This document shows, in pieces, positions 1,229-16,922 of a DNA stretch of 16,922 bases (position 1 is the stretch's first letter; the number at the start of each line of letters is the position of its first letter). The notes beneath the pieces were generated by a model that saw only the letters and a list, made by a program, of their open reading frames with translations, had not been told where the DNA came from and searched no databases. Origin of the DNA: Nitrospirota bacterium (lineage in GTDB: Bacteria > JACPQY01); the NCBI GenBank assembly GCA_016190245.1, contig JACPQY010000010.1:1-16922 (forward strand), in the 5' to 3' direction. Position numbers and translations under genes: made by a program.

Positions 1229-1304
1229 GGTGGGCGTAGCTCAATTTGGTTAGAGCACCAGACTGTGGCTCTGGGGGTTGCGGGTTCAAATCCCGTCGCC
1301 CACC
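1229..1304 (+). tRNA. tRNA-His (anticodon GTG)
   Basis: A full cloverleaf can be drawn. The acceptor stem is GTGGGCG (1230-1236) with CGCCCAC (1297-1303). The D arm is GCTC...GAGC. The anticodon arm CCAGA/TCTGG has loop CTGTGGC, giving anticodon GTG. The T arm is GCGGG-TTCAAAT-CCCGT. The diagnostic extra G(-1) at 1229 faces C73 at 1304, as required for tRNA-His. The next three bases are CCG, so the CCA end is not genomically encoded and must be added by tRNA nucleotidyltransferase. No clear sigma70 promoter was found upstream. The gene marks the edge between the defence-like DNA on the left and the envelope operon on the right. Confidence 0.95.
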
Positions 1305-1464
1305 CCGCCGCCTGCGGCAGGCGCGGAAGCGCCTCGCGGCGCGGCGTCGCAGGTGGAAGGGCAGAAGTCCGCACCCGCGGTTGGGAGGTGGCTCGCCCTT
1401 CTGGCTCTTCGGGTCCTGCCGGTACAGGGCGTCCTGCCTGCTCAGCGGGCCGCCCAGGGAGGTG

Positions 1465-6775: not shown

Positions 6776-7828
6776 CTACCGGCGGCCGGGTGGTCGCTTG
6801 GTCGGTGGGGCAGCGCCGGTGCCGCCGGGATTGGGAACCGTCATGCCGATGCCGAAATCCAAGGCCATACCCACGGGGCGACCGTAGATGGCTGAGTCGA
6901 GGAGCTGGAGACCGCCGCCCATCCGGACGAAGAGAGGAATCGCGGACCACGGGTAGTACCGGAGACCGAGGAGGACTGAAGGTTCGTTCATCGTGAACGT
7001 GGTTAACTTGCCTTTTGCGTCGGGGAAGTCGATGAGCTTACGGGCGGTGCCGTAGAGCAGGAAGGCGTAGGCCTGGAGTCCATCGGGCATGGGCCATCCC
7101 CAGTAGTAGTAGCCGCCGCCCACGGAGAAGCCGTAACCCTCAGGTTTGGGATTTGGGTAGATCGGGATGTTGCCCTTCTCCTCCAGAACGGGACTGATCC
7201 ACTTGCCCAAGCCGAAGAACGCGGTGAAGGGACGGATCTCCAACTCGAAGGCCGCACCGAAGGTGGGGTAGAGGTGTCCCGCCCCGGCGCTGAAGGTGTA
7301 GGCGATTCGTTCGTCGAAACGTTTCTTGGATAGGTGGGCAGGCGGCTTGCGGGCGACCACCTTGGGTTTGGGCGGCGCTTCCTTAGGTTTTTCGCGCGTG
7401 CGGGCCTTGAACCCTTCGCCGCTCGTGATGGTGGTGAAGAAGCCCGCGAGATCATCCCCGAGCGCCACGATGATGTCGCCGCTCCATCCGGCCGGCAGCG
7501 GCCGGGGCGGTTTCTGGGGCTTCGTCGTCATCTGCTCCAGCATGGCGCGCACCTCTCCACAGGCTGGGGCCGTCTGGACCCGACAGTACAGGCGCGAGTA
7601 GACGCCGCTGTACTCGCGCCCGCCGATGGCCACGTTGGGCCACCCCTGAGAGATCAGGTATGCGCGGAAGATTTCCGGCCACTCGGGGTGAACGTTGTTG
7701 GGCAATATCGTGACGGTCGCGGCACTCTGCGCGAGGGCGGGGGCAGGGAAGAGGACGATGGGGGCTGTGCCGCAAATCGCGAGCAGGAGCAGTAGCGCGG
7801 GAAGACGCGCAAGAGACGCCGGCCTCAT
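6776..7828 (-). CDS. Predicted outer-membrane beta-barrel protein of unknown function
   Basis: The protein has 350 residues from ATG 7828. It opens with an arginine-bearing signal peptide and a long hydrophobic core ending ALA-QS (cleavage after about residue 33). Residues about 34-150 form an unrecognised globular part with two cysteines (YCRVQTAPACGE). A lysine/proline-rich linker (about 175-200) leads to a C-terminal half of alternating aromatic and polar strands (YTFSAGAGHLYPTFGAAFE, FSVGGGYYYWGW, VLLGLRYYPWSAIPLFVRMG, MALDFGIGMTV), typical of a beta-barrel. I cannot name a family. The frame is open upstream to 7966, but that part runs through the promoter and is not used. There is no Shine-Dalgarno, and the ATG lies only about 10 nt after the predicted transcript start. 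Confidence 0.7.
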   Translation of the reverse strand: MRPASLARLPALLLLLAICGTAPIVLFPAPALAQSAATVTILPNNVHPEWPEIFRAYLISQGWPNVAIGGREYSGVYSRLYCRVQTAPACGEVRAMLEQMTTKPQKPPRPLPAGWSGDIIVALGDDLAGFFTTITSGEGFKARTREKPKEAPPKPKVVARKPPAHLSKKRFDERIAYTFSAGAGHLYPTFGAAFELEIRPFTAFFGLGKWISPVLEEKGNIPIYPNPKPEGYGFSVGGGYYYWGWPMPDGLQAYAFLLYGTARKLIDFPDAKGKLTTFTMNEPSVLLGLRYYPWSAIPLFVRMGGGLQLLDSAIYGRPVGMALDFGIGMTVPNPGGTGAAPPTKRPPGRR

Positions 7829-7844
7829 GAAGCTGATATCATGG

Positions 7845-7873
7845 ATTATAGACGTGACGCCACTGGGTGACAA
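7845..7873 (-). promoter_or_regulatory. Near-consensus sigma70 promoter of the beta-barrel gene
   Basis: On the minus strand TTGTCA (7873-7868, 5/6), exactly 17 nt, then perfect TATAAT (7850-7845). It is the strongest promoter in the window. The -10 ends 16 nt before the ATG, so the leader is about 10 nt and has no ribosome site. Confidence 0.75.
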
Positions 7874-7904
7874 GGGTTTTCCCCCATGACCCATCCGCAA
7901 TTCA

Positions 7905-7933
7905 TTGACGCGCGTCGGGACTTTCCCTATCAT
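7905..7933 (+). promoter_or_regulatory. Sigma70-type promoter of the cheD-HDOD-TPR-peptide transporter run
   Basis: TTGACG (7905-7910, 5/6), 17 nt, TATCAT (7928-7933, 5/6). A start near 7940 gives a leader of about 18 nt containing GTGAGGG, well placed before ATG 7958. It is back-to-back with the beta-barrel promoter, 31 bp away. Confidence 0.7.
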
Positions 7934-7957
7934 GCGTAGGCACGTGAGGGCTATTCC

Positions 7958-8422
7958 ATGCTTCAAATCGGTCTCGGAGAACTAAAAACCTCCACCGATG
8001 GAAAGGGGCCCATGGAGATACCCAACATCATGTCGGGTGTCGCGGTGATCATGTTGGACAAGAAGCGCGGCATGGCGGGAGCCGTGCACGTGCTCCTGCC
8101 GGTCTGCAATTCGATGAGTCGGGCGGATCTCACCAAGTTCGCGGACACGGGCGTGAAGCTACTCCTCGGTGAAATGGAGAACCAAGGTGTCGCCAAGCAC
8201 GAGATCACCATCAAGGTCGTCGGGGGGTCCGACCTGATGGGGGCCACGAATTTTTCGGTCGGGCACAAGAACGTGGAAGTCGTTTCGCGCGTTCTCAGCC
8301 AGGAGGGTCTCCTCGTGGCCGCCCAGGAGGTTGGAGGCCGGCGCAAGCGGCACGTCATCATTCACCCCGGGACGGGGCGCGTCCAGGTCAAGTACCTTCT
8401 GGGCGAACCCCTCGATATTTAG
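7958..8422 (+). CDS. CheD-like protein lacking the catalytic Cys and Thr
   Basis: The protein has 154 residues and aligns along the whole CheD fold: VAVIMLD, GAVHVLLP, KFADTGVKLLLGEMENQG, KVVGGSDLMG, FSVGHKNVEVVSRVL, AAQEVGGRRKRHVI and TGRVQV. CheD deamidates glutamines on chemoreceptors and, in some bacteria, binds the phosphatase CheC. The active residues of Thermotoga CheD (Cys27, His44, Thr21, from memory) align without gaps to Gly27, His44 and Ile21 here. Only the histidine remains, so deamidation by the known mechanism is unlikely. It may act as a binding or regulatory protein. GAGGG precedes the ATG. The next gene starts 2 bp after its stop, so translation is probably coupled. No chemoreceptor or other che gene is in the window. 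Confidence 0.85.
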   Translation: MLQIGLGELKTSTDGKGPMEIPNIMSGVAVIMLDKKRGMAGAVHVLLPVCNSMSRADLTKFADTGVKLLLGEMENQGVAKHEITIKVVGGSDLMGATNFSVGHKNVEVVSRVLSQEGLLVAAQEVGGRRKRHVIIHPGTGRVQVKYLLGEPLDI

Positions 8423-8424
8423 TC

Positions 8425-9279
8425 GTGCCGATCTCACTCGAGTTGAAGCGGAAGATCGTCCGCTCTGTGGACGATCTCCCCCCAATCCCGCGCGTGGTCA
8501 TGAAGATGAAAGAACTGATGATGGCCCCCAACTGTTCCGCCAAGCATATTGCGGACCTCGTCTCGCAGGATCAGGCGCTTGCCTCGAAGGTGCTGAAGCT
8601 GGCCAACTCGCCCTATTTCGGGGTGATCCGCACGATCAGCAGCATCCAACAGGGCGTGGCGTTTCTCGGCTTCAACACCCTGCACAATCTCGTTCTGGCG
8701 AGTTCGCTCTTCGGGATGTATGAGAAGGAGCTCAAGGGCTACAAGATGGCGAAGGGCGCTCTCTGGGAGCATTCGATCTACTCCGCTTTTGCCGCTCAGT
8801 CCCTCGCGGAGAGCGTCGGGAACAAGGCCGTTAGAGAGACCGCTTTCACGGCGGGTCTCATCCACGATGTCGGCAAGCTCGTCATGAGCCTCTATATCAG
8901 CGAGGTGTTCCAGAGTATCATGGACTTGGTGGAGCGTGATGGATTGCAGTTCCTCGAGGCGGAAAAGAAGCTCCTGGGGTTCGACCATGCGGAGATCGGG
9001 AGTGAGGTGGCGCGGAAGTGGCGATTTCCCCCCGCCTTGGTGAATGCCATTCGGTACCATCACGCGCCGCAACTGGCGAGCTCGGACGCGGACCTCGTTT
9101 CGATCGTTCACTTGTCCGACGCGGCCTGCCTGATGATGGGCAAGGGGTCGGGGGTCGATGGCGGGTACTACCCGATCGACGGGCTGGCTCTCCAGACGCT
9201 CAAGATGAAGGAAGACGATCTTCAGAAACTCATTCTTCGACTCACGAGCAGCGTCAATCCGGCCATTCTCGAGGTTTGA
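8425..9279 (+). CDS. HDOD-domain signalling protein with an intact HD motif
   Basis: The protein has 284 residues and is essentially one HDOD domain. It begins LKRKIVRSVDDLPPIPRVV, continues with SQDQALASKVLKLANSPYFG and the signature SIQQGVAFLGFNTLHNLVL, and has AGLIHDVGKLVMSLY (His147-Asp148) and LLGFDHAEIGSEVARKW. HDOD proteins act in bacterial signalling, motility and regulatory complexes; most have lost HD catalytic residues. Here the HD pair and a later YHHAP are kept, so phosphohydrolase activity is possible but not shown. The GTG start lies 2 bp after the CheD-like gene and has no ribosome site of its own, pointing to coupled translation and a joint function with that protein. Confidence 0.9.
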   Translation: MPISLELKRKIVRSVDDLPPIPRVVMKMKELMMAPNCSAKHIADLVSQDQALASKVLKLANSPYFGVIRTISSIQQGVAFLGFNTLHNLVLASSLFGMYEKELKGYKMAKGALWEHSIYSAFAAQSLAESVGNKAVRETAFTAGLIHDVGKLVMSLYISEVFQSIMDLVERDGLQFLEAEKKLLGFDHAEIGSEVARKWRFPPALVNAIRYHHAPQLASSDADLVSIVHLSDAACLMMGKGSGVDGGYYPIDGLALQTLKMKEDDLQKLILRLTSSVNPAILEV

Positions 9280-9338: not shown

Positions 9339-11114
9339 ATGTCGGGCGGTTGGGCTGAGCGCTTCGCGGGGTTGAGCGCAAAGCAGGCGGATCGGAGCGG
9401 AGGGTTCGTCCGGCACCTCGGTCTTGGTGCGGCAGTCCTGTGCCTCGCGTGGGTCTCGTGCTCTTCGCCGTGGTTGCGCCGTTCGGTCACGCTGCCCGGC
9501 GTGCCGCCGTCGCCCGAGATGGATTTCTATTCGGGGTACCTCGAGGCGCGCCGCGCGTGGCACGCGGGGCAGTCGGCCGAGGCCACGGAGGTCTACGCCC
9601 GGCTCGTCCTGTTGCGTCCGGAGTCCGCCGAGTTGTGGACGGAATACGGGCAGACGGCGTCGCGCGCGGGCCAAGTGCAGGTGGCGGAGAACGCGTATCG
9701 GGAGGCCTCGCGGCTGGACGGCAGTCTCATCGAGCCGCACCTGATGCTTGCCCAGATCTTTGCGCTCACGGGGCGCTGGGCGCCCGCGCTCGACGAATAC
9801 GAGGAGGTGCGGCGTCGCCAGCCCGACTACCCGGGGTTGGGGGTCAGCATGGCGGCCGTGGCCCTGGAGGCCGGCGAGTTGGACCGTGCGAAGGAACTCC
9901 TCCAGGAGTTGCTCGAGGTGGAACCCGAGGATCCCACCCTGTTGTACTACTGGGCCCGTCTTCTCTCCCGACAGGGGCAGCCCGAGGCGGCCGAGGATGC
10001 CGTGACGCGGGCGCTGCGTTGGGCGCCCCATTCTTCGGAGCTGCTGTGGGAGCGCGCGCGTTTGTACAAGGACAGCGGGCGTCCCGAGGCCGCGCTCTCG
10101 GAAGTTCATCGGCTCCTCAGTGTCAATCCTGCCCACGCCGAGGGGCGTACGATGCTCTGGCAGGCCGTCTGGGACCCTCAACTGAACTCGGAGGCCGCAG
10201 AGATTCTGGCGGGTCTCACGGAGCAATACCCCGTGGATCCTTTCTTCCCCCTGGCCTTGGGCTGGGCCCATCTCGAACGGGAGGCGTTTCCCGAGGCGCT
10301 CAAGGCCTTCCGGGAGAGCCTCCGCCGCTACCCGGAGTTCGACGAGGCGGCCTATGGCGAAGGGCTCACCCTCGAATCGCTCGAGAACGAGGCCGAGGCG
10401 TACGCGGCGTTTGGTCGCGTGCGGGCGGGATCGAGCCGGTATGCCGATGCCACGATCCGCCTCGCCTTGATCGAGGCGCGGGGGAAGAAGTGGGACCACG
10501 CCGCGGAGAGAATGAGCGCGCTGCTCAAGACGGCGCCCAACGAGGCTCGCTATCACGAGATCCTCGGTCTGATCCGCCAGGAGCAGGGAGATTCGGATCG
10601 TGCCCTCGCGTCGCTTCGCCGCGCCGCGGAGCTCGAGCCCGAGAACGAGCGGATTCTGTTCCGGCTGGGGATCCTCCTGGAGGAGAAGTCCGATCGCGAG
10701 GGGAGCCTCGATGTGATGAGGCGTATCCTGAGGGTGAACCCCACGCACGCCAACGCCCTGAACTGGGTGGGCTACACCTATGCCGAGAGCGGGCAGAATC
10801 TCGAGGAGGCGGAGGGGCTGGTCCGCAGGGCCCTGGAGGTTCGACCCGAGGACGGGTACTTTGTGGACAGCCTGGGGTGGGTGCTCTTCCAGCGCGGCGA
10901 TTTCGAGGGGGCCTTGGGAGAACTCCTGCGGGCCGTGGAGCTCACAAAGGATGATCCCGTGATCCACGAACACCTTGGCGATGCCCTGCTCAACCTCGGC
11001 CGCGGCGAAGCGGCGCGGCAGGCCTATGAGCGGGCGCTCAAGCTCTCACCCAAGAAGGACCAGCTCGAGCGGCTCCGGCGCAAGGTCCATCTGGTTCCCC
11101 CCCCTCTCGAGTGA
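9339..11114 (+). CDS. TPR-repeat lipoprotein
   Basis: The protein has 591 residues from ATG 9339. A positively charged N-region is followed by GLGAAVLCLAWVSC, a lipobox with Cys41, so the protein is probably membrane-anchored on the periplasmic side. From about residue 60 to the end it is an array of tetratricopeptide repeats (for example AWHAGQSAEATEVYARLV, YWARLLSRQGQPEAAEDAV, GWVLFQRGDFEGALGEL, HLGDALLNLGRGEAARQAYE), a scaffold for protein binding. The open frame extends back to 9018 inside the HDOD gene, but that part lacks protein character. The 59-bp gap before it holds a GACCCC/GGGGTC inverted repeat (9291-9296, 9317-9322). Its stop overlaps the GTG of the next gene, with an 8-C run just before. 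Confidence 0.85.
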   Translation: MSGGWAERFAGLSAKQADRSGGFVRHLGLGAAVLCLAWVSCSSPWLRRSVTLPGVPPSPEMDFYSGYLEARRAWHAGQSAEATEVYARLVLLRPESAELWTEYGQTASRAGQVQVAENAYREASRLDGSLIEPHLMLAQIFALTGRWAPALDEYEEVRRRQPDYPGLGVSMAAVALEAGELDRAKELLQELLEVEPEDPTLLYYWARLLSRQGQPEAAEDAVTRALRWAPHSSELLWERARLYKDSGRPEAALSEVHRLLSVNPAHAEGRTMLWQAVWDPQLNSEAAEILAGLTEQYPVDPFFPLALGWAHLEREAFPEALKAFRESLRRYPEFDEAAYGEGLTLESLENEAEAYAAFGRVRAGSSRYADATIRLALIEARGKKWDHAAERMSALLKTAPNEARYHEILGLIRQEQGDSDRALASLRRAAELEPENERILFRLGILLEEKSDREGSLDVMRRILRVNPTHANALNWVGYTYAESGQNLEEAEGLVRRALEVRPEDGYFVDSLGWVLFQRGDFEGALGELLRAVELTKDDPVIHEHLGDALLNLGRGEAARQAYERALKLSPKKDQLERLRRKVHLVPPPLE

Positions 11115-12817
11115 GCGGAGCGTTTCGCCGGTGGCTCGCGCCGGGGTTCGCGGCAGCGCTGGCGGCCTGCGATACTCCCCGCGCGCCAACCGAACTCGCC
11201 ACCCACACGGCGGGGGCGGGCGCGGACTCACGTGACGGAGATGTTTTCGTTGAAGCCTCGATCGGCGACGCCAGCCAGCTCAACCCCGTGCTCGCCAAAG
11301 ACGCCTCATCGGGAGACATCAACGATCTTGTCTACAGCGGTCTCCTGCGCTATGGGCCGGATCTGCAAGTTGAAGGCGTGCTCGCCGAGCGATGGGACGT
11401 GGGCAGGGGCGGATTGGAGATCACATTCCACCTGCGTCGCGGGGTGAGGTGGCACGACGGTGTGCCCTTCAGCTCGGCGGACGTTCTCTACACGTACGAA
11501 AAACTCCGGGATCCGAAGGTCCCCACACCGTATTCCTCGGAGTACGATTTGGTGAAGGAAGTGCGCGCGCCCGATGCGAACACGGTGGTGGTTGCATACC
11601 GCGAGCCGTTCGCGCCCGCGCTCGAGAGCTGGATGATGGGGGTGCTTCCGAAACACGTGTACGAGGCGAAGTCCTTTGCCTGTCCGCCCACGCCGTGCCG
11701 ACCCGAGGCAGGGCCCGCGAAGACGGTGGAGGATTTCGTTTCCCACCCCGCGAACCGGTGCCCCATCGGCACGGGGCCGTACAAGTTCTGCGAGTGGCGC
11801 ACGGACGAGAAGGTGGTGCTGGAGGCCAACCCGGACTACTTCGAGGGTCGGCCGCACATCCAGCGGTACATCTACCGGGTGATTCCCGACCAAGCGGTAC
11901 AGTTCCTGGAGTTGAGGCGGGAGTCGGTTGACTCCATGGGTCTGCGGCCGGATCAGTACCGCGCCTATGACGTCTTCTTCGAGGCGTACCGGAAGTACCG
12001 CTATCCTTCATTCAGCTACACCTACCTCGGGTTCAACCTCCGCAAGCCCATGTTCCAGGACCGCCGCGTGCGTCTGGCCGTGGCACGCGCCATCGATAAG
12101 GACGAGCTCATCGAAGGTGTTCTGATGGGTCTCGGCCGTGCCGCCACCGGGCCCTTCCCCCCGATGAGTTGGGCGTACGATCCCGGTATCGAGGATTTCG
12201 CGTACGATCTCGAGGAGGCCCGACGACTACTGGACGAGGCGGGATGGAAGGACAGCGACGGCGACGGCATCCGCGAGAGGGACGGCGTGCCGTTTCGCTT
12301 CGAGGTGATGACGAATCAGGGGAACAAGACGCGCGAACTCACGGCGCAGGTCCTCCAGCAGCAGCTCCGGCGGATCGGCCTCGATGTCAAGATCCGGATC
12401 GTGGAATGGAGCGCGTTCATCCAGCATTTTGTGGAGCCGCGCGCCTTCGAGGTCGTCATCCTCGGGTGGTCGCTCGGGCGCGACCCGGACCAGTACCTCA
12501 TCTGGCACTCGAGCCAGGACGGCGAGGGCAAGTACAACTTCGTGGGCTACCGAAACGAAGAAGCGGACGCGCTGTGGGTGAAGGGTCGGACCACGTTCGA
12601 CAAGGCGGAGCGGGAGAAAACCTACCGGCGGATCCATCGCCTGATTCACGACGACCTCCCGTACGTGTTCCTCTATTACCCTGAGGCGACGCCCGTCGTT
12701 CACCGTCGCTTCGAGGGGCCGGAGGTCCGCCCGGCAGGCCTCACGTGGAACTTCATCCGCTGGTTCGTGCCGGCGGAGAAGCGGCGGTACCGCACGCAGG
12801 TGTCTGCGAATGGGTGA
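11111..12817 (+). CDS. Family-5 solute-binding lipoprotein of a peptide/oligopeptide ABC transporter
   Basis: The protein has 568 residues. The signal ends in LAAC (Cys20), so it is lipid-anchored. The family-5 (DppA/OppA-like) body shows QLNPVLAKDASSGDINDLVYSG, LRRGVRWHDGVPFSSADVLYTY, PIGTGPYKF, the hinge-region VRLAVARAIDKDELI, and the C-terminal YNFVGYRNEEADAL and RIHRLIHDDLPYVFLYY. It captures peptides or similar ligands outside the inner membrane and passes them to the two permeases that follow. GTG 11111 overlaps the previous stop (GTGA). Four cysteines (CPPTPC near residue 196 and C...C around the PIGTGPYKF motif) sit in an insertion and could form disulfides. The ligand cannot be predicted from sequence alone. 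Confidence 0.92.
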   Translation: MSGAFRRWLAPGFAAALAACDTPRAPTELATHTAGAGADSRDGDVFVEASIGDASQLNPVLAKDASSGDINDLVYSGLLRYGPDLQVEGVLAERWDVGRGGLEITFHLRRGVRWHDGVPFSSADVLYTYEKLRDPKVPTPYSSEYDLVKEVRAPDANTVVVAYREPFAPALESWMMGVLPKHVYEAKSFACPPTPCRPEAGPAKTVEDFVSHPANRCPIGTGPYKFCEWRTDEKVVLEANPDYFEGRPHIQRYIYRVIPDQAVQFLELRRESVDSMGLRPDQYRAYDVFFEAYRKYRYPSFSYTYLGFNLRKPMFQDRRVRLAVARAIDKDELIEGVLMGLGRAATGPFPPMSWAYDPGIEDFAYDLEEARRLLDEAGWKDSDGDGIRERDGVPFRFEVMTNQGNKTRELTAQVLQQQLRRIGLDVKIRIVEWSAFIQHFVEPRAFEVVILGWSLGRDPDQYLIWHSSQDGEGKYNFVGYRNEEADALWVKGRTTFDKAEREKTYRRIHRLIHDDLPYVFLYYPEATPVVHRRFEGPEVRPAGLTWNFIRWFVPAEKRRYRTQVSANG

Positions 12818-12860: not shown

Positions 12861-13838
12861 ATGGGCCGCTACCTCCTTCGCCGCCTCCTGACCCTGATCA
12901 TCCTCCTCCTCGGTATCACACTGGTCACCTTTGCGGTGATGCAACTGGCTCCGGGCGGACCGATCGATCTCGCCACCGACATGTCCGCGAAGATCTCCCC
13001 TGAGATGAAGGATCGGCTCAACAAACTCTACGGCTTCGACCAACCCTGGTACATTCAGTATGGAAACTGGCTCGCGCGGAGTGTTCAATTCGACTTCGGG
13101 GAGTCGTTCAAGGATGGGCGCCCCGTGATCGACAAGATCCTCGAACGGGTCCCGAACACGCTGCTCCTCAACGTGTGCACGATGGCCCTCATCTTCCTCT
13201 TCGCCATCCCCATCGGGGCGGTCTCCGCGCTGCGCCAGAACTCGCTGATCGACCGGGGCTTGGGGATCTTCGTGTTCGTGGGGTTCTCCATGCCGACGTT
13301 CTGGTTCGCGCTCATCCTGATGCTCCTATTCGGGATATTTCTCGGCTGGCTGCCGGTCTCCGGTTTGCGCTCCCTCGACTACGGGGAGCTCTCGGCGACG
13401 GGGCGGCTTCTCGACGTGGCACAGCATCTCATCCTGCCGGTACTCACGGCGGCCTTCACGGGCCTCGCGTTCATGTCGCGATACACGCGCGTCGCGCTAC
13501 TGGAGGTGATCCGGCAGGACTACGTGCGCGCCGCTGCCGCAAAGGGACTGTCGCCATCGCGCGTGTTCTGGAGACACGCGTTCCGAAACACGCTGATCCC
13601 CATGGTCACACTCCTGGGTTTGATGCTCCCGGACCTGATCGGAGGGGCGTTCATCTTCGAGACGATCTTCGCCTACCCGGGTCTGGGCCGGCTCGGGATG
13701 GAGGCGATGATGTCGAGGGACTACCCGGTCGTGATGGGGCTGGGCACGATCGTCGCGTTCCTGACGCTGCTGGGGAATCTTCTGGCGGATCTGGGTCTCG
13801 CGATCGTTGATCCGCGCGTCCGAATCGTGTCTTCGTGA
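12861..13838 (+). CDS. Peptide ABC transporter permease, DppB/OppB type
   Basis: The protein has 325 residues. The N-terminus has the conserved first membrane helix of the family (LLRRLLTLIILLLGITLVTF) followed by MQLAPGGP. A periplasmic part (FDQPWYIQYGNWL, FDFGESF) precedes about five more membrane helices. The cytoplasmic coupling (EAA-like) loop DYVRAAAAKGLSPSRVFWRHAFRN lies before the GGAFIFETIFAYPGLGRL helix, and it is where an ATPase would dock. GAGGG lies 5 nt before the ATG. The stop overlaps the start of the next permease. It forms the channel heterodimer with that protein. Confidence 0.93.
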   Translation: MGRYLLRRLLTLIILLLGITLVTFAVMQLAPGGPIDLATDMSAKISPEMKDRLNKLYGFDQPWYIQYGNWLARSVQFDFGESFKDGRPVIDKILERVPNTLLLNVCTMALIFLFAIPIGAVSALRQNSLIDRGLGIFVFVGFSMPTFWFALILMLLFGIFLGWLPVSGLRSLDYGELSATGRLLDVAQHLILPVLTAAFTGLAFMSRYTRVALLEVIRQDYVRAAAAKGLSPSRVFWRHAFRNTLIPMVTLLGLMLPDLIGGAFIFETIFAYPGLGRLGMEAMMSRDYPVVMGLGTIVAFLTLLGNLLADLGLAIVDPRVRIVSS

Positions 13839-14671
13839 TGCTCAGGATCTACCTCCAGCGGTTTGTCCGCATCCGATCGGGTCTGGTGGGGGCCGTCCTG
13901 CTTGTGGCGCTTGGAGTGGTGGGCTTGGCCGCGCCCGTCTTCGAGCCGCGCGACCCCGATGCTCAGGCGCTGGCCGAGCGTCTCCGTCCGCCGTCCGCTT
14001 CCGCGTGGATGGGCACGGACGAACTCGGCCGCGATGTCCTCTCGCGCATGCTGCGCGGGGCGAGGATCTCGTTGAGCGTTGGCTTCGTGGCCGTCGGGAT
14101 TTCGGTTGTGATCGGCACGGGTGTGGGTGTGGTCTCGGGTTTTCTCGGTGGGTGGGTGGACGCTGTCCTGATGAGGCTGGTGGATATCATGCTTTGCTTC
14201 CCGACGTTTTTCCTGATCCTGATGGTGCTCTCGCTCCTCGAGCCGGGGATCTTCAAGATCATGGCCGTGATCGGCCTCACGTCCTGGCCGGGCCTCGCTC
14301 GCGTGGTGCGGGCGGAGTGCCTGAAGCTGCGCGAGCTCGAGTTCGTGACGTCCGCGCGGGCGCTCGGGGTGACGCGGCGGGCCATCATGGCGAGGCATGT
14401 TTTCCCCAACGTGCTCAGCTACGTCATGGTGGCTGCGACCCTGGGCGTGGGGGGAGCGATCCTGACGGAGGCGGGCCTGTCGTTCCTCGGTCTGGGCGTC
14501 CAGCCCCCCACAGCGAGTTGGGGCAACATTCTCACCTCGGGCAAGGACTACATTCACGTCGCGTGGTGGCTCATGGCGTTTCCGGGGCTGGCCATTCTGG
14601 CCACCGTGCTGGCGTTCAACCTCGTGGGCGAGGCCCTCCGCGACGCCATCGACCCGCGCCAGGCGAACTGA
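13838..14671 (+). CDS. Peptide ABC transporter permease, DppC/OppC type
   Basis: The protein has 277 residues. An N-terminal helix is followed by the DppC hallmark WMGTDELGRDVLSRML and then SLSVGFVAVGISVVIGTGVG, LVDIMLCFPTFFLILMV, the coupling loop EFVTSARALGVTRRAIMARH, and GGAILTEAGLSFLGLGVQPP with ASWGNIL. The ATG at 13838 forms a TGATG overlap with the upstream stop; the GTG one codon earlier (13835) is an equal alternative. After its TGA the genes stop. The DppD/DppF-type ATPases that normally follow are absent, and the next DNA is repeat-rich. The transporter therefore needs ATPases encoded elsewhere, or its 3' genes were lost. Confidence 0.93.
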   Translation: MLRIYLQRFVRIRSGLVGAVLLVALGVVGLAAPVFEPRDPDAQALAERLRPPSASAWMGTDELGRDVLSRMLRGARISLSVGFVAVGISVVIGTGVGVVSGFLGGWVDAVLMRLVDIMLCFPTFFLILMVLSLLEPGIFKIMAVIGLTSWPGLARVVRAECLKLRELEFVTSARALGVTRRAIMARHVFPNVLSYVMVAATLGVGGAILTEAGLSFLGLGVQPPTASWGNILTSGKDYIHVAWWLMAFPGLAILATVLAFNLVGEALRDAIDPRQAN

Positions 14672-15136: not shown

Positions 15137-15412
15137 CTACGCGGCCAGACGGTCGGAATGTTCGGCCGCCCGATAGAGATCCCAGGCAACCTGGAGGTTC
15201 ATCCAAAACTCCGGGCTTGTTTTCAGCTTCCTGGCGAGCAGGAGCGCCGTCTCGGCGGTAACCCCGCGCTTGCCCCTGATGAGGGTATTGATTCGCTGGA
15301 TGGGGATCTTGAGAGAACGGGCGAGTTCGACTTGGGTGATCCCAAGCGGTTCCAGGAACTCCTCGAGCAGGATTTCCCCCGGATGGCTGGGCTGACGGCG
15401 CTTGGGCAGCAT
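15137..15412 (-). CDS. higA: HigA-type antitoxin, XRE-family helix-turn-helix
   Basis: The protein has 91 residues. It has the HigA/VapI pattern: RQPSHPGEILLEEFLEPLG, then the helix-turn-helix ITQVELARSLKIPIQRINTL, IRGKRGVTAETALLLARKL, and TSPEFWMNLQVAWDL. It neutralises the HigB toxin and represses the operon by binding its promoter. The ATG at 15412 is preceded by a strong GGGAGG, 10 bp after the higB stop. The toxin-first order is typical of higBA. Stronger translation of the antitoxin than of the TTG-initiated toxin fits its role. Confidence 0.95.
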   Translation of the reverse strand: MLPKRRQPSHPGEILLEEFLEPLGITQVELARSLKIPIQRINTLIRGKRGVTAETALLLARKLKTSPEFWMNLQVAWDLYRAAEHSDRLAA

Positions 15413-15422
15413 GATCCTCCCT

Positions 15423-15716
15423 TCAGGAATGGTAGTCCGTGATCCAAACGGAGGACGCGCTTCCGTTCTCGAACTTGAACACGAGGCGATACTGGTCGTT
15501 GATCCGAATACTGTGTCGCCCCCTGAGATGGCCCTTCAGGGCTTCCAACCGGTTGCCGGGTGGAGCCGACAGATCCTGAACCGTGCGGGCGGCATTCAGC
15601 ATGTCCAGCTTCCGCCTGGCCACGCGCTGGACCGGTTTGGGGATTTTCCGTGCAGCCTTCGAATTCGTCCCGTCATAGATGTCCTGCGTCGTCCTGTCCC
15701 TGAAATCCGTAATCAA
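15423..15716 (-). CDS. higB: HigB-type (RelE superfamily) toxin
   Basis: The protein has 97 residues. The HigB pattern is clear: ITDFRDRTTQDIYDG, IPKPVQRVARRKLDMLNAA, LSAPPGNRLEALKGHLRGRHSIRINDQYRLVF and VWITDYH at the end. Such toxins cut mRNA in the ribosome; basic and aromatic residues in the RHSIRINDQYRLVF strand fit that role. The start is TTG at 15716. There is no Shine-Dalgarno, and the predicted -10 ends 9 nt before the TTG, so the toxin may be made poorly from a leaderless message. It is the first gene of the pair, followed by higA. Confidence 0.95.
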   Translation of the reverse strand: MITDFRDRTTQDIYDGTNSKAARKIPKPVQRVARRKLDMLNAARTVQDLSAPPGNRLEALKGHLRGRHSIRINDQYRLVFKFENGSASSVWITDYHS

Positions 15717-16598: not shown

Positions 16599-16922
16599 TT
16601 ACTGCAAGGTGCCCTGGCCGAGGAGGATCGAGACGTTGTCGCTGTTAGAGTTCGCCACGGCGAGGTCGGAGATGCCGTCGGCATTGAAATCGCCCGTCGT
16701 GACGGAGAAAGGCCCGGTCCCCGCCCCGTAGTTGACGGCGGCGGCGAAGGTGCCGTTGCCCTGGCCGCCTGTCCCGTTCCCGAGGAGGATCGAGACGTTG
16801 TTGCCGCCTTAGTTCGCCACTGCGAGGTAGGAGATGCCGTCGGCATTGAATTCGCCCGTCGTGACGGAGCGAGGCCCGGTCCCCGCCCCGTAGTTGACGG
16901 CGGCGGCGTACGTGCCGTTCCC
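16599..16922 (-). pseudogene. FG-GAP/VCBS-repeat protein, C-terminal end, broken by an in-frame stop, runs off the right edge
   Basis: The minus-strand frame entering at the right edge reads GNGTYAAAVNYGAGTGP, then a stop, then VSILLGNGTGGQGNGTFAAA, FNADGISDLAVANSNSDNV and SILLGQGTLQ, with the natural stop at 16601-16599. These are FG-GAP-type repeats (D.N.DG..DLAV.N), which form beta-propellers in secreted or surface proteins. The unit is 54 codons (162 bp), and the two units visible are nearly identical in DNA, so they duplicated recently. A TAA at 16811-16809 lies where the sequence suggests Tyr (TAC, NYGGN), a one-base change. Either the gene is a pseudogene, the protein ends one repeat early, or the base is an error. 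Most of the gene lies outside the window. Confidence 0.7.

Follow-up and report, generated by a model that had tools for sequence, protein, structure and literature searches.

Cysteine-less CheD-like proteins are paired with HDOD proteins apart from chemotaxis genes in two small bacterial phyla

The stretch of DNA analysed here (the window, 16,922 nucleotides from a Nitrospirota bacterium) contains a gene for a CheD-like protein, CheD-A, in which the catalytic Cys27 is replaced by glycine, and directly behind it a gene for an HDOD protein, HDOD-A. The same combination was found for nine distinct CheD-like proteins from two phyla, with Ile21, Gly27 and His44 in all of them and an HDOD gene next in every case. 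Lacking Cys27, CheD-A is most likely a non-deamidating form of the CheD fold. Our best explanation, held at even odds, is that a CheD–HDOD pair of chemotaxis operons gave rise to a non-deamidating form that stands on its own. The features of the window that bear on it are the following.

7905..7933, + strand: candidate sigma-70-like promoter, TTGACG-17-TATCAT, upstream of CheD-A (consensus scan, 10/12)
7958..8422, + strand: CheD-A, Cys-less CheD-like protein of 154 aa, pair A (Pfam CheD, model, orthologue, paralogues)
8036..8038, + strand: Gly27 codon replacing catalytic Cys27 (sequence comparison)
8425..9279, + strand: HDOD-A protein of 284 aa with HD residues intact (Pfam HDOD, residue table)
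9339..11114, + strand: TPR protein with a possible lipoprotein signal (Pfam TPR; same order in G001, a sister-family genome)
11111..12817, + strand: peptide-type solute-binding lipoprotein, SBP_bac_5 (Pfam, 311 bits; same order in G001)
12861..14671, + strand: two ABC permeases, BPD_transp_1, at 12861-13838 and 13835-14671 (Pfam; same order in G001)

CheD-A matched Pfam CheD (PF03975) with 83.3 bits against a curated cut-off of 25 (E 1.7e-23), and the nearest solved structure was 2f9z_C, the CheD of T. maritima (phmmer E 1.2e-14). An AlphaFold model of the protein (pLDDT 82) aligned with 2f9z_C in VIA-align with a Z of 23.8 and an rmsd of 1.5 Å over 147 residues, while other families reached a Z of 11.5 at most. 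The match and the model uphold the original prediction that the whole CheD fold is kept. In T. maritima numbering, Ile21 is encoded at 8018-8020, Gly27 at 8036-8038 and His44 at 8087-8089. The alignment had been described as free of gaps, which is correct between residues 21 and 44, but one gap, a single residue long, occurs before residue 21. To place these residues in context we used a PF03975 search over 386 genomes spread across the domain (the spread sample), in which every match was tabulated for residue 27 and the next gene. Gly25, Ser26, Cys27 and His44 were nearly invariant across the 162 Cys-bearing CheDs of this sample. Thr21, whose replacement had been counted with that of Cys27 as loss of the catalytic site, was present in only 97 of 163 Cys-bearing CheDs; since it varies among these proteins, only Cys27 is diagnostic.

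HDOD-A starts with GTG on the same strand, 2 bp beyond the CheD-A stop codon (TAG, 8420-8422). In the window the HDOD start has no ribosome site of its own, as was originally observed, but in G001 the motif GGAGG stands directly before both HDOD starts. The protein matched Pfam HDOD (PF08668) with 213.6 bits against a curated cut-off of 22.9 and Pfam HD with 43 bits, and its nearest solved structure was 3hc1 (E 7.7e-38). It keeps H116, H147-D148 (encoded at 8863-8868), H188, H212-H213 and D232, so that the HD pair reported at the outset is accompanied by a complete set of H, HD and D metal ligands, and the HD site may bind a metal or a ligand.

The window's genome (G000) was found to carry a second CheD–HDOD pair, pair B, on contig 60, also with Gly27, and G001 carries orthologues of both pairs. 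Beyond these two, all genomes returned by the search for relatives were related at the domain level only. The spread sample added Gly27 CheDs with HDOD in one further family (f71), and the pair was present in 5/5 examined genomes of the phylum to which it belongs; the CheDs of this second phylum have a shortened loop after residue 48. The Cys-less form with HDOD was thus found in only two phyla, both small, and a search for viral relatives found none. An HDOD gene followed 9 of 11 Gly CheDs, compared with 20 of 162 CheDs that have the Cys (Fisher p 1.4e-6, uncorrected for kinship). In these 20 cases HDOD is on the same strand, and in most of them the two genes overlap or almost do. The two Gly27 CheDs without HDOD lie on another tree branch. 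One, in G080 (L187, 2538-3098), has the motif GSG and Tyr in place of His44 and stands beside cheA/cheR, and the other, in G383 (L192, 3029-3514), has VGPG; both apparently represent separate losses of the catalytic Cys. A CheD paralogue with Ser at the Cys27 position (LGSS) was also seen beside cheA and cheB in G243 (L109, 2805-3365).

Within the spread sample, CheD and HDOD genes stand next to each other at 29 distinct loci. In one genome (G345) a CheD that has the Cys is fused with HDOD in a single protein of 448 aa (L127, 10225-11571), which argues for a physical link of the two proteins; on the evidence of adjacency and fusion, the proposed connection between CheD and HDOD is real. A gene that by eye resembles the flagellar flgB lies near this fusion. 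In a large phylum of 291 genomes, HDOD stood alongside CheD in 25 of the best 30 CheD loci, and Cys27 was present in 30/30. A pairing unique to Cys-less CheD was ruled out by these 25 loci and the 20 Cys pairs of the spread sample; judged by these sequences, CheD and HDOD were paired before Cys27 was lost, and they are paired in more lineages than have lost it. Genes for cheR, cheB, cheA, cheW or mcp (cheY was not counted) were present in the flanks of 14/20 Cys pairs and 0/9 Gly pairs, in a comparison of flanks of unequal length, and a frequent order around the Cys pairs was cheR-cheD-HDOD-cheY-cheB. No che genes were found beside pairs A and B, either in the 16.9-kb window or in the 13-17 kb around the G000 and G001 copies. 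Homologues that keep Cys27, which the original prediction had named as evidence against it, therefore do share the pairing, whereas the che-free context sets the Gly27 form apart from Cys pairs, most of which lie in che operons.

A CheD tree built without the columns of the active site placed the Gly-HDOD proteins at three positions (3 changes), but a single clade was not rejected (p-AU 0.217). Since the Gly proteins were not joined in this tree, loss of Cys27 may have occurred more than once. The HDOD tree was clearer and placed HDOD-A and HDOD-B as sisters with support of 99/98, so that in the window lineage both genes were duplicated together; the simplest order puts this duplication after the loss of the Cys. 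Estimates of dN/dS were 0.23 for CheD-A, 0.14 for HDOD-A, 0.13 for CheD-B (dS being saturated in these three) and 0.10 for HDOD-B, values that indicate purifying selection on both genes of pairs A and B. A sequencing error or a pseudogene was ruled out by this selection and by the nine distinct proteins. Conservation of the loss in nine proteins from two phyla also strengthens the proposal that the CheD fold has probably been reused without its nucleophile.

The order of genes after CheD-A in G001 is that of the window, namely HDOD, TPR protein, solute-binding protein and two permeases, and upstream of the CheD-A orthologue we found TTCATTGACGC (the TTGACG box), a 17-nt spacer and TATTCT. The TPR lipoprotein and the peptide importer had been included in the suggested signalling module. 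They are conserved beside pair A in G001, but they are absent beside pair B, which adjoins SpoIID, HU, ArgJ and aminopeptidase genes, and beside the second-phylum pairs, and they are therefore outside the core module. Other observations were made in the window. Upstream of CheD-A lies a divergent open reading frame (6776-7966, - strand, 396 aa) without a Pfam match, whose listed TTG start overlaps the start of CheD-A and is probably placed too far upstream. A HigB-like toxin gene (15137-15716, - strand; Pfam HigB-like_toxin, 81.5 bits) adjoins an antitoxin-type gene with HTH_3, and a tRNA-His (GTG) is located at 1230-1306 (+ strand). At the contig end a tandem repeat (16618-16919) with a 162-base unit, 90% alike, encodes on the - strand repeats of the 'FNADGISDLAVAN' type, FG-GAP-like by eye, one copy having an in-frame stop.

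Chemotaxis genes were present elsewhere in these genomes. MCPs numbered 6 in G000 and 9 in G001, and 7-13 MCP domains were counted in the second-phylum genomes, which ruled out a genome without chemoreceptors as the setting of the pair. CheR was found in the genomes searched that carry the Gly27 CheD–HDOD pair, and CheW-domain proteins in G000 and G001. Each of these two genomes also gave one CheC-domain match, the open frames being 400 and 467 codons long, and these proteins could be flagellar-switch relatives. The CheC-binding residues Met92-Phe93 (M101-F102 in B. subtilis) are absent from the Gly27 proteins; pair A has Leu-Met at these positions, pair B has Met-Leu and the second phylum Val-Ala. 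Two results first suggested that HDOD may replace CheC as the partner of CheD. Among the HDOD-linked CheDs of the spread sample Met92 occurs in 1/20 and Phe93 in 2/20, compared with 80/142 and 79/142 in the others, and no CheC match was found in G035 and G026. Against a replacement, Phe93 is retained in the majority of the CheDs paired with HDOD in the large phylum (among the best 30 loci), and CheC is present in G005 and G153.

A bolder reading, which we put forward tentatively and with a little less than even confidence, is that CheD and HDOD constitute a signalling complex of two proteins that has so far gone undescribed. It would be frequent in che operons, with its two parts fused in a single species, and in two phyla it would have been freed from chemotaxis operons and, without deamidase chemistry and in one of these phyla also without the HD site, would act purely by binding. 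In our best explanation, too, the two proteins would form a complex in which the CheD fold still recognises a helical receptor-like or HDOD surface without modifying it, and because recognition would be kept while modification was lost, the pair would signal by reversible binding, with the receptor or partner being occupied or titrated. That the fold and the HDOD neighbour are conserved in the nine pairs and neither active site is, together with the fusion protein, favours a complex that signals by binding. Having moved out of che operons and lost the catalytic cysteine, the pair most likely binds partners and carries out no chemistry. For B. subtilis CheD the binding role has been reported as major and the deamidase activity as minor (PMC3513319). 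The same work can be read in support of a different account, which we consider unlikely, that the Cys-less CheD still serves chemotaxis by binding chemoreceptors and tuning CheA without deamidation, HDOD only regulating CheD: a B. subtilis CheD F102E, deamidase-competent and binding-poor, behaved as a null (PMC3513319). Every searched genome with a Gly27 pair has MCPs, CheR and one CheC-domain protein, and the search of these genomes gave no CheD that keeps the Cys. However, the Gly27 pairs stand apart from che genes in both lineages, and the Met92-Phe93 pair that binds CheC is missing from their CheDs.

The original prediction was that the CheD fold acts as a sensor or adaptor that regulates an HD-domain enzyme, and a form of it in which phosphohydrolase activity is regulated appears improbable to us. 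The complete HD site of HDOD-A and the strong conservation of HDOD-B (88% vs 65% for its CheD) speak for such control. But HDOD-B carries D232N, HDOD has no established substrate, and in the second phylum the HDODs show H116F, H147R, D148T/S, H212Y and H213P/Q, with only H188, H229 and D232 left of the HD-site positions (L193 3321-4205, L191 2031-2942, L190 2085-3041), while the pairing with CheD is kept. Since these HDODs are without HD residues, control of an HD enzyme by CheD does not hold as a general claim but is possible in the window lineage; hydrolysis, as these substitutions suggest, is outside the conserved core of the CheD–HDOD module. A different reaction, catalysed through another cysteine (position 50 in the pair A CheD, position 40 in that of pair B) or through His44, we regard as quite improbable. 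His44 was found in 9/9 Gly27 CheDs with HDOD and 163/163 Cys-bearing CheDs, and Cys50 is common to CheD-A of the window and its G001 orthologue, but the nine proteins have no cysteine position in common, and several fold relatives (NTAN1, YfiH, CNF1 and BLF1) were deposited as mutants in which one Cys is replaced, an indication that proteins of this fold generally have a site based on Cys. Least credible of all is a decaying relic of chemotaxis; loss of the catalytic residue and the shortened second-phylum loop would agree with decay, but dN/dS is about 0.1-0.23, the reading frames are intact, the duplicates have been retained, and synteny and a promoter-like motif are conserved.

The protein families themselves are known; what appears to be new is the Cys-less, che-free CheD–HDOD pair. 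The open-licence literature searched contained no paper covering both CheD and HDOD, and subscription-only descriptions may exist. The role of HDOD beside CheD in many che operons and the function of CheD without enzyme activity now become testable questions, and the Cys-less CheDs, under selection with an HDOD partner, would offer a natural experiment on the claim from B. subtilis that binding outweighs deamidation. Compared with known HDOD proteins (PF08668; 3hc1, 3m1t), the window protein has the complete domain and the HDxGK motif and differs in having a CheD partner, of which the literature searched gave no case. The likeness to the CheD deamidases of T. maritima and B. subtilis (PF03975, 2f9z) lies in the fold, His44, the glycine-rich GG motifs and Arg130, whereas here Gly stands at position 27, Leu24 is changed, Gly25 and Ser26 are changed in most of the proteins, and the genes have an HDOD neighbour and no che neighbours. 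The CheC–CheD–CheY-P system of B. subtilis, in which CheD chiefly binds (PMC3513319), provides a precedent for a non-catalytic role, although the partner gene here is HDOD and not CheC and the CheC-binding Met-Phe is absent. The Cys-bearing CheD–HDOD pairs of che operons, observed in this analysis in many families, have the same genes in the same order with very short spacing but keep Cys27 and lie mostly among cheR, cheY, cheB, cheA or mcp.
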